From Flavobacteriaceae bacterium (GTDB lineage Bacteria > Bacteroidota > Bacteroidia > Flavobacteriales > Flavobacteriaceae), in NCBI GenBank assembly GCA_018657955.1, contig JABHWD010000020.1, positions 62,001-126,000 of the forward strand: 64,000 nucleotides of DNA. The letters run 5' to 3'. The position numbers were made by a program, and so were the translations under genes. Shown here one piece after another: positions 5,303 to 57,617 of the stretch (position 1 is the first letter of the stretch; every line of letters starts with the position of its first letter). The notes below the pieces were generated by a model that saw only the letters and a list, made by a program, of their open reading frames with translations, did no database searches and was not told the DNA's origin.

Positions 5303-5381
5303 TTTTTTATTTTTTTAAATTAGGTGGTTTTTAACTCTTTTATTTACCCAAATTTATGGTTAATACTTACCGATTAATAAG

Positions 5382-5579
5382 CTATTTTAATCTTAGCTGT
5401 TTTTTTATATTATCAACATCACTTTTATGAACTAATGTTGAATGTGTCAAAGCTAACTTTCTTTTTTTCGATTTTTTTGTTAGGATATGACTTTTAAAAG
5501 CATGTTTTCTTTTTATTTTTCCAGATCCAGTTAGCTTAAAGCGTTTCTTTGCACTGGATTTTGTCTTCATTTTTGGCAT
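5382..5579 (-). CDS. rpmI: 50S ribosomal protein L35
   Basis: A small basic large-subunit protein of 65 residues, of normal length. It has the family start [20 protein letters not shown], then [21 protein letters not shown]. It lies 10 bp after infC on the same strand and is presumably translated from the same mRNA. Confidence 0.96.
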
Positions 5580-5589
5580 TTCTCTTAAT

Positions 5590-8085: not shown

Positions 8086-8145
8086 TTTCTTATAATAGTC
8101 TAAGATTTAATTTAAAAACATTTTATGCTATAATAAAATTATAAA

Positions 8146-8358
8146 TCATTTTTCAAAAAGAGCGTTAATTATTTTAAATATTCCATAAAATATTAAAAAA
8201 ATAGCTATTAAGCAGAACAGTACACCAATTAATGTATAAATATTTAGATATATATGATATTTACTATATCCAACATGAATTAATACTGGACCAATTATAA
8301 TTGGCAATAATGAGCATACTAAATTTATTATACCATCTTTTATTTTCTCTGTTTTCAC
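8146..8358 (-). CDS. Small two-helix membrane protein (DUF6095-like)
   Basis: A 70-residue protein with two hydrophobic stretches (about residues 10-30 and 38-62) and a short basic start. The pattern LPIIIGPVLIHVGY, then LIGVLFCLIAIFLIFYGI, resembles DUF6095 proteins that follow murQ in flavobacteria; this is recall, not a search. The start is a GTG adjoining the murQ stop (TAAGTG), so the two are translationally linked. The function is unknown. Confidence 0.65.
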   Translation of the reverse strand: MKTEKIKDGIINLVCSLLPIIIGPVLIHVGYSKYHIYLNIYTLIGVLFCLIAIFLIFYGIFKIINALFEK

Positions 8359-9195: not shown

Positions 9196-11412
9196 TTAAT
9201 GAGTGTTTATAATATTATTTAAAGTACTGCTAGGTCTCATTATTTTTTCAACATTCTTAATGTTTGTGGAATAATATCCCCCAAGATCAACTCTTTCTCC
9301 TTGATTTTCATTCAGCTCTTTAATTATTGTTGATTCATTTTTATTTAAAAGAAGGTGCATTTCCTGAAATTCTTCTTTTAGTTTAATATTTTCATTTTGA
9401 ATTGATAGTGCTTCTGACCAATATAAAGCTAAATAGTAGTGACTACCTCTGTTATCAAGCTCTCCAACCTTTCTAGACGGAGACTTGTTAGTCATTAACA
9501 ATTTCTCTATTGCCAATCCTAAGCATTTTGAAAGAACTAATGCATTAGAATTCTTAAACATTTTTCCTAAATGATCTAATGAAACTTCTAAGGCTAAAAA
9601 TTCCCCTAATGAATCCCATCTTAAATGATTTTCTTCAATAAGTTGTTCAACATGTTTAGGAGCAGAACCACCAGCTCCAGTTTCAAACAACCTGCCACCT
9701 TTCATTAAAGGCACTATTGAAAGCATTTTCGCACTTGTCCCTACTTCTAAAATTGGGAATAAGTCAGTTAAATAATCTCTTAAAACATTTCCTGTAACAG
9801 AAATGGTATTCTTTCCAGCATTTATTCTTTCTAAAGTATAATTAGTTGCATCATATGGGGATAATATTTTTATTTCAAGATTCTCAAGGTTATGTTCTTT
9901 TAAATAAAGATGTACTTTTTCTATTAATTCAATATCATGAGATCTTGTATTATCTAACCAAAAAATTACAGGATCTTTTGTTGCTATTCCTCTTTCAACT
10001 GCAAGTTTAACCCAATTTTTTATTGGCTCATCTTTTACCTGACACATACGCCATATATCTCCTTTACTCACCTTTTGTTGAATAAGTGTATCTCCATTGG
10101 TATCTTTTATATTAACATAACCATTATTCTCTATTTCAAATGTTTTATCATGAGATCCATATTCCTCGGCTTTTTTTGCCATTAGTCCAATATTTGAAAC
10201 ACTTCCCATTAATTCAGGATTAAAAGCTCCATTTTTTTTACAAAAATCTATAGTAGCTTTATATATTGATGCATATGAACTATCAGGTATAATCGCTTTT
10301 GTATCCATCATTTGATTATTTCTATTCCACATTTTTCCAGAAGTTCTAATCATTGCTGGCATAGAAGCATCAATAATGATGTCACTTGGAACATGTAGAT
10401 TTGAGATTCCTTTTTCAGAATTTACCATTGCTAAATATGGACCTTGTTCAAAAGCTAGGTTAATATCCTTTTTAATCGCTTTCGATATTTTACTATCGAG
10501 GGATTCAATTTTGCTTAATAACACGCCGATACCATCATTTGGATTTACTTCAATTGTATTTAGAATTTTTGAATATTTTTGAAAAATATTTTTGAAAAAT
10601 ATTTTAACTACATGACCGAATAAAATAGGGTCACTAACCTTCATCATTGTAGCTTTTAGGTGAATTGAAAGAAGTAAGTTATTGTCTTTTGCGTCACGAA
10701 TTTCATTTTCTATAAAATCTAATAAATCTTTTTTATTTAAGACAGAGGCATCGATAATTTCATTTCCCTCAATTGTAAGATTATCTTTTAGAATTTTCTC
10801 TTTTCCACTTATATCAATATGTGAAATACAAACATCTATCTTATTTTTTATAGTTAGAGATTTTTCATTATTTCTAAAATCACCAGATTTCATAGTAGAT
10901 ACGTGAGTTTGTGATTTCTTGTCCCATTTCCCCATTGAATGAGGGTTTCTTTTAGCATAATTTTTAACTGCATTAGGTACTCTTCTGTCAGAATTTCCTT
11001 CTCTTAATACAGGATTGACTGCACTGCCTGTAATTAAATCATATTTTTTTTTAATTCCTTTTTCAGAATTATTTACTGGATCATCAGGATATTCAGGTAT
11101 ATTATAGCCTAACTGTTGTAGTTCTTTTATAGCGTTTTTAATTTGTGGGATAGAAGCACTTATATTTGGGAGCTTTATTATGTTTGCATTAATGTCATTA
11201 ACAAGGTTTGCTAAATACTTTAAATCATCTTCTACAATTTGATTATTTTTTAAATTTTCAGAAAAATTAGCTAAAATTCTTGAGGAAAGTGAAACATCTC
11301 TAGTTTCTGTATTTATTTTAGAAGATTTTGTAAATGCTTTTACTATTGGCAAAAAAGATATGGTTGCTAAAGCAGGAGCTTCATCTGTCTTAGTATAAAT
11401 AATTTTAGACAT
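9196..11412 (-). CDS. icd: NADP-dependent isocitrate dehydrogenase, monomeric type
   Basis: Oxidises isocitrate to 2-oxoglutarate and CO2 with NADP+. At 738 residues it belongs to the large single-chain family, not the 415-residue dimeric one. Characteristic runs are [14 protein letters not shown] at the N-terminus, [28 protein letters not shown], and [17 protein letters not shown] near residue 575. No frameshift is seen. The candidate RNA and its terminator lie just upstream, so transcription probably starts within 11413-11480. Confidence 0.95.
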
Positions 11413-11479
11413 TTAAATATCAAAAAATTAGTTTTTCAAAGATAATGATTGACATTGAGAAATAACAGTAAATACAGAA

Positions 11480-11534
11480 CAGATATAAAAAACAAAAGCC
11501 ATATTATTGTAGTTTCCTACTTTAATATGGCTTT
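11480..11534 (-). terminator. Strong intrinsic terminator (minus strand)
   Basis: Read on the minus strand, AAAGCCATATTA (11534-11523) pairs with TAATATGGCTTT (11506-11495). An inner GTAG/CTAC pairing closes a GAAA loop, and the stem is followed by TTGTTTTTTAT. The stem has about 16 pairs plus the U-rich tail. It lies 70-80 bp before the icd start, so it ends a transcript made from the gap, not icd. Confidence 0.8.
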
Positions 11535-11960
11535 CTATGAATTCACTTTGTAATCAATTCCCCATTACTGGTTGTGACAGAATTTGCATTTTGTCTTGAT
11601 TTCATTGCTCATTCATTCAGAATCGGGTTTCTTTGGTTTGCCTTGGAGATTGCTCTCTTTTGCTTGCATTTCTACCTGATTCCGGTTTAATTGTTTTCTA
11701 TTTGTTCTTATTTTCCACTCTCATTTGCATGGGAGTCTCTTTTAGAACTTTGCTCTTAAGTTCATCTATCCAGCGAACTTTCAAGATTTGCTTTTGAGCA
11801 TTTTTACTTTAGATCATAAATATTGTGCAGGCACACTCTTTATATTCTAAAGCATTGCTTTGGCTTTCCGCTTGCGCAGTCCGCTTTCTGCTTTTTTGAA
11901 AACAATTTTGTGTAAAAGAACGTTTCTTACTTTGAACTTGTATCGTTGCCGATTTTAGCA
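11490..11960 (-). ncRNA. Candidate structured RNA in the rplS-icd gap
   Basis: The 668-bp gap 11413-12080 has no reading frame of gene length. It is richer in G+C than its surroundings (30-43 % per 60-base line, against about 25 % in neighbouring coding lines I counted). It is strongly purine-rich on the minus strand and ends in a good terminator. Local hairpins are visible, such as AAAGC-ATT-GCTTT and GTGC-AG-GCAC near 11826-11865. Three short frames exist, including a 20-residue one at 11605-11543 beginning MKSRQNANS. I could not match it to tmRNA, RNase P RNA, SRP RNA or 6S RNA. The 5' end is a guess. Confidence 0.35.
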
Positions 11961-12053
11961 ATTGCTTCAAATTCGTTAGATCTAATATAGACTAATAATT
12001 ACTAAAACCATTCAATATTATAAAAGTTAATTTCAACATGTTTTAAACTACAA

Positions 12054-12073
12054 TTATTAACAATTGTTAATAA
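12054..12073. repeat. 20-bp perfect palindrome after rplS
   Basis: TTATTAACAATTGTTAATAA equals its own reverse complement. It lies 8 bp beyond the rplS stop, at the upstream edge of the candidate RNA region. It could be an operator for a dimeric regulator or a weak terminator. It has no clear U-tract. Confidence 0.55.
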
Positions 12074-12080
12074 GTTAAAA

Positions 12081-57481: not shown

Positions 57482-57509
57482 TTGACTAATATCAAAAATT
57501 GTATCTTTA
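57482..57509 (+). promoter_or_regulatory. Promoter of the SRP RNA gene
   Basis: TTG (57482-57484) at -33 and TATCTTTA (57502-57509) near the -7 consensus are separated by 17 bp. The RNA begins 3-5 bp later. This is the best two-part promoter in the window. Confidence 0.65.
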
Positions 57510-57511
57510 CT

Positions 57512-57608
57512 ATGGCAAGTCCTACACAACTAGCTCCTGATTAACCCTCCAGAACGGGAACGTAGCAAAGGTATTTAGTTGTAGCAGTGTGATGTAGGTA
57601 GCTTGCCA
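57512..57608 (+). ncRNA. ffs: Signal recognition particle RNA, small bacterial type (4.5S)
   Basis: A 97-base hairpin RNA. The ends ATGGCAAG and CTTGCCAT pair, and CCTAC pairs with GTAGG further in. The tip shows the conserved Ffh-binding core: CAGAACGGGAACGTAGCA, with a GGAA tetraloop, the CAG side and the AGCA side of the internal loops. A good promoter lies upstream and a T-run follows directly. The core departs slightly from the E. coli CAGGTCCGGAAGGAAGCA, as expected for another phylum. Confidence 0.9.
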
Positions 57609-57617
57609 TTTTTTTTT
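57595..57617 (+). terminator. SRP RNA terminator
   Basis: The 3' side of the closed RNA hairpin (TAGCTTGCCA) is followed by nine T (57609-57617). The RNA helix itself acts as the terminator stem. The SDR start codon lies 7 bp downstream. Confidence 0.75.

Follow-up and report, generated by a model that had tools for sequence, protein, structure and literature searches.

Large structured RNAs are rare in bacteria, and many prove to have catalytic activity or to assemble into unusual particles. OLE, GOLLD, ROOL and raiA are RNAs of this type, with roles that are at best partly known, and the molecule described here would be of a like kind. It would be an independently transcribed, noncoding and highly structured RNA of ~490 nt, encoded on the minus strand and kept by the Flavobacteriaceae family between the genes rplS and icd. 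We studied it in a window of 64,000 nucleotides, the whole stretch of DNA that was analysed, in which an original prediction from the sequence had placed a candidate for an unnamed RNA gene.

The rplS-icd gap (11413-12080, 668 bp) is bounded by rplS (ribosomal protein L19; 12081-12431) upstream and by icd (isocitrate dehydrogenase; 9196-11412) downstream, both on the minus strand and both identified by their open reading frames and by family-wide synteny. The gap had been described as by far the longest in a tightly packed window, and this is the case: it is 2.3 times as long as the next (287 bp), which is followed by gaps of 273 and 202 bp, with a median of 61 bp and ~94% of the window coding. 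The 287-bp and 273-bp gaps (5303-5589 and 8086-8358) gave no Rfam match, and the 202-bp gap contains the Bacteroidales small SRP RNA (57506-57612), the only Rfam match of the window. At 34.3% G+C, the RNA body is richer than the window as a whole (28.9%), in agreement with the enrichment that had been noted over the surroundings. The strong purine skew that had been noted on the minus strand held in part; the richness is real (62.3% in the RNA region), but it is only modestly unusual given that coding sense strands average 56.3% and reach 63.0%.

The body of the RNA gene was placed at 11486-11978 (minus strand) from its fold, from homologues at the same locus and from covariation, with the 5' end estimated from a -7 promoter box. 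This predicted box, TATATTAG (11982-11989, minus strand), has one mismatch to TAnnTTTG, the consensus given for flavobacterial sigma-A in PMC9723704. The window shows a weak -33 element. At the 3' end, a terminator hairpin, AAAGCCATATTA..TAATATGGCTTT, with its T-rich tail (11486-11535, minus strand) was recovered by pattern scan and is near-invariant in 60 aligned members. The hairpin itself (11535-11494) consists of 13-bp and 4-bp segments, and the T-rich tail that follows it lies ~73 nt before the start of icd. A generic promoter and terminator scan missed this element, which was revealed by RNA folding and by its conservation in the 60 relatives; the minus-strand terminator that had been predicted to lie before icd is thus borne out.

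Comparative searches of the kind proposed with the original prediction traced the RNA across the family. With the gap as query, blastn found homologues at the rplS-icd locus, which extend over the full length in congeners, at 80-90% identity, and over part of it in numerous genera of the family. A terminator-hairpin pattern run over 84,980 species, with one genome each, found at least 119 matching stretches. Among the matches listed, ~101 of 119 have rplS and/or icd as a same-strand neighbour, in genera that include Winogradskyella, Maribacter, Arenibacter, Zobellia, Aquimarina, Tenacibaculum, Kordia, Algibacter, Psychroserpens and Cellulophaga; many of the remaining stretches in these matches belong to unrelated phyla and are apparently fortuitous. 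A covariance model built on the 3' 160 positions of the RNA matches 209 of the 300 genomes of Flavobacteriaceae, which represent 175 of 237 genera. This tally is a lower bound, as some genera without a match have divergent members at the locus (e.g., genus g80). All loci returned from strong matches to the model have rplS and/or icd within reach.

Outside Flavobacteriaceae the model gives weak matches only, and the two that were inspected (L204, L205) are not at the rplS-icd locus. Weak matches outside the family and in the species-rich genus g152 (probably Flavobacterium) were rejected as members, those inspected (L201, L204, L205) having no adjoining rplS or icd. The RNA is absent from five genomes of g152, which have a gap of 215-294 bp after rplS, and no homologous RNA was found at the corresponding locus in the other families sampled. 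Genus g80 (L206, G099), which is represented by another streamlined genome, carries the RNA with an altered terminator stem, AAAGCCGCAC..GTGCGGCTTT; the near-invariant stem sequence is therefore not absolutely required. In genus g26 (L251 716-1650, G030) there are apparently two tandem and diverged RNA units, each with a box array and a terminator.

The predicted folding energy of the 521-nt minus strand is -129 kcal/mol, compared to a mean of -90.5 for dinucleotide shuffles (z = -7.3). Without the terminator hairpin the RNA body of the window has z = -3.2, and across members the terminator-stripped bodies range from -1.4 to -5.5, with negative values in 20 of 20. From 5' to 3' (coordinates descending on the minus strand), the predicted structure begins with a branched unit composed of a closing stem and two hairpins (11934-11974), seen in the window fold and the genus alignment and with a matching unit in class A. 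It is followed by a hairpin (11912-11930) in which a GTAAGA/TTTTAC stem closes an AACGTTC loop with a conserved CGUUC; this hairpin appears in the fold made without the tail, and CGTTCTTT is conserved in most members. A long-range helix, with its 5' strand AAUUGUUUUC at 11898-11907 and its 3' strand GAAAACAAUU at 11689-11698, is supported by the class A and genus alignments and by the window fold. It encloses a central multi-arm domain (11717-11891), recovered in the alignments and in the window fold, the class A arms of which covary. Two hairpin domains complete the body before the terminator. The first is built on a GGAAUC/GAUUCU stem (11619-11683) and the second contains the UUGAAAUC/GAUUACAA helix (11537-11616); both are seen in the genus alignment and in the window fold, and the equivalent helices of the first and the equivalent domain of the second covary in classes A and B. 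The order of these elements (5' branched unit, (A)CGUUC-loop hairpin, multi-arm domain closed by the AAUUGUUUUC/GAAAACAAUU helix, two hairpin domains and terminator) is the same in the single-sequence fold of the window as in the other classes. A kissing-loop dimer formed through a palindromic AACGUU loop was considered and rejected, since CGUUC is the portion that is conserved, and 31 of 116 members lack AACGTT.

Covariation was appraised in alignments that supplied both the structures and the pair counts, to which controls with 3' partners slid by 1-3 columns and a null of alignments simulated along a FastTree phylogeny were applied. Class A (n = 58, RNAalifold) yielded 127 pairs, of which 86 had changed on both sides, and 93% of cells were paired; the slid controls had 40-43% of cells paired and 54-65 both-side changes. 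Class B (n = 29) yielded 92 pairs, of which 56 had changed on both sides, and 92% of cells were paired; here the slid controls had 41-47% and 25-38. Within the genus of the window, 97.8% of cells were paired over 130 pairs with seven double changes, while sliding reduced these figures to 35-38% and 0-1. Relative to the tree-based null, 28 of 127 pairs in class A and 10 of 92 in class B were significant at the level of the structure set, and the four pairs that passed the test over all column pairs lie inside the structure. The predicted architecture of the RNA is shared across members while the sequence diverges. Covarying helices, promoter-like and terminator elements and the lack of conserved coding frames are the features of an independent structured RNA gene. 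Together with synteny and the absence of an Rfam match, they support at the sequence level the core of the original prediction, an unnamed RNA gene that is read leftward and ends at ~11480-11490.

The rplS-icd RNA gene almost certainly belongs to a new RNA family, as judged from these comparisons, and it is very probable that it both does so and acts in trans by one means or another. Action in trans is suggested because the architecture is kept while the sequence drifts, and because the distance to icd varies and another gene sometimes lies between. As to the means, we lean towards an RNP-type function, in which the RNA would operate as a folded and probably protein-bound particle and not as a leader of icd. 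A long regulatory sRNA that works by base pairing would also act in trans. Its exposed loops (the CGUUC loop and the purine-rich junctions) would pair with target mRNAs, which would suit the conservation of the CGTTC loop and of unpaired A/G-rich junctions, and bacteria are known to have long regulatory RNAs. However, over most of the molecule it is the structure that is conserved, not a seed, and ~490 nt is large for sRNAs, and we regard this role as rather unlikely.

The predicted promoter of the RNA is preceded by an array of four boxes. Boxes 1 and 2 (12054-12073, minus strand) form a perfect palindrome, TTATTAACAATTGTTAATAA, an inverted DnaA-box-like pair that is matched exactly in the window. 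Boxes 3 and 4, GTTTAAAA and GTTGAAAT (12030-12048, minus strand), are degenerate in the window and correspond to GTTNATAA and GTTGATAT in aligned relatives. The arrays of members have the form TTATNAACA / TGTTAATAA / GTTNATAA / GTTGATAT, and the spacing is identical in every one of the 91 members (of 116) whose four boxes could all be parsed. Downstream of the array, 113 of 116 members have a TAnnTTW box, which resembles the flavobacterial sigma-A consensus TAnnTTTG. At the rplS locus of the RNA-less g152 genomes the array is absent. In 400 kb sampled from a complete relative, nowhere but at the RNA promoter do at least three TTATNAAC sites fall within 60 bp. In several genomes the number of palindromes is close to that given by a reversed-pattern control.

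Palindromes of the type formed by boxes 1 and 2 are also found upstream of gyrB, near carB and between rpiB and rnr. A conserved TTATCAACAATTGTTAATTA-like site that closely resembles the palindrome at the RNA promoter lies upstream of gyrB (L236, L237, L238, L239, L258, L271), and a similar palindrome-like site occurs near or upstream of carB (L240, L242, L256, L270). It is possible, from the resemblance of these sites, that the RNA promoter, gyrB and carB constitute a shared regulon. The rpiB-rnr intergenic region (L250, G019:C1:910000-913000; also L247, L235, L267) carries TTATTAACA-type boxes. Since the GC skew changes sign across it, from -0.12 to +0.14 in the complete relative (G019), these Flavobacteriaceae probably have their chromosome replication origin here. 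The rplS-icd gap itself was rejected as an origin, the skew switch of the complete relative being at rpiB-rnr, far from the RNA.

The promoter of the RNA may be controlled by a factor that sits on the four-box array, for which DnaA would be the most likely candidate. The resemblance of the boxes and their location make binding of DnaA to the array plausible, and we regard DnaA-type control as somewhat less likely than not. Such control would couple synthesis of the RNA to replication and growth. A fuller proposal, in which a structural RNA has its synthesis set by DnaA through a dedicated array common to gyrB and the origin and links chromosome replication or topology to another cell process, is tentative and on balance doubtful. 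It could also be argued that the locus is chiefly a DnaA-binding DNA element, a datA-like titration or control site to which the RNA is incidental, since the four-box array has fixed spacing and resembles the boxes of the likely origin. Against this, covariation spans the whole RNA and the array lies just upstream of the conserved -7 box, and such an element is highly improbable as the main function of the locus.

The region between the terminator and icd bears on whether the RNA could be a leader. It contains TATCTTTG (11438-11445, minus strand), a candidate -7 box (TAnnTTTG) that, by its sequence and the consensus in PMC9723704, may belong to a promoter of icd itself. In relatives, the terminator is 94-914 nt from icd, and another gene intervenes in some. 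Because of this varying distance, the occasional intervening gene and the candidate icd promoter, the rplS-icd RNA looks like a separate transcription unit, with its own predicted promoter and terminator. A cis-acting leader or riboswitch of icd with a regulated terminator would be in keeping with the position of the RNA, which immediately precedes icd on its strand, and with the terminator at the end of the RNA. Such a leader would be expected to show fixed adjacency and no separate promoter, which is not what we find at this locus; furthermore, the 3' hairpin is near-invariant and no alternative antiterminator was seen. We consider a role as icd leader even less probable than that of a DnaA-binding element. 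Weakest of all, the suggestion that the gap encodes a short peptide or a dual-function RNA can scarcely be credited: short frames exist (a 20-codon frame at 11605-11543 in the window genome, and a 15-25-codon frame, MxIEIKTKCKF..., that is partly common to the genus), but their lengths and starts differ between congeners, leaving none conserved among the closest relatives or within the genus, the frame stops early in the window, its region is a base-paired domain, and the wider alignment of relatives has no shared frame.

Known families were sought with Rfam 15, and no match to OLE, GOLLD, ROOL, raiA or any other family reached the gathering score in the gap or in the RNA of relatives. At relaxed thresholds, matches to RefA9, MALAT1, RT-14, Thr_leader and RsmY were rejected as far below the gathering score and inconsistent between members. 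Covariance-model search likewise confirmed that tmRNA, RNase P RNA, 6S RNA and SRP RNA, which had found no counterpart in the gap by their conserved motifs, do not match there. The genome has its tmRNA (RF00023) at C10:81634-82023 and its RNase P RNA (RF00010) at C20:203607-203906, 6S RNA (RF00013) has no match anywhere in the genome, and the SRP RNA is the one in the 202-bp gap.

The rplS-icd RNA is present in most sampled genera of a major marine bacterial family, yet it is in no RNA database. Cultured genera carry it (Zobellia, Maribacter, Winogradskyella, Cellulophaga and Aquimarina), which makes it directly accessible to knockouts and structural studies, and a concrete hypothesis on its control is supplied by the box array.

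Among RNAs of the same bacteria, 6S-Flavo (RF01685) is also a noncoding RNA gene of Bacteroidetes, but it spans ~108 positions and has its own copy elsewhere in the genome (C20:186305, 98.5 bits). The L19-Flavobacteria leader (RF03130) is likewise next to rplS; however, it covers 29 positions and lies upstream of rplS in relatives, whereas the RNA described here is downstream. Flavo-1 RNA (RF01705) was observed upstream of rplS in two relatives (L007 305-394, L008 294-375). Our literature search found no earlier description of the rplS-icd RNA, the comparison with the Rfp RNAs of Flavobacterium psychrophilum being made by locus only. That study reports 85 new RNAs, and Rfp RNAs such as Rfp18 are likewise structured noncoding RNAs of Flavobacteriaceae that are conserved beyond the species (PMC9723704). 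The five genomes of g152, probably Flavobacterium, have no such RNA at this locus, and it is unlikely that the rplS-icd RNA is identical to Rfp18 or another Rfp RNA. Unlike OLE, GOLLD, ROOL and raiA, the rplS-icd RNA has no Rfam match and is found only in Flavobacteriaceae, at one locus. It nevertheless shares with them the character of a noncoding RNA gene of several hundred nucleotides, with a predicted multi-domain fold in which structure is conserved over sequence.
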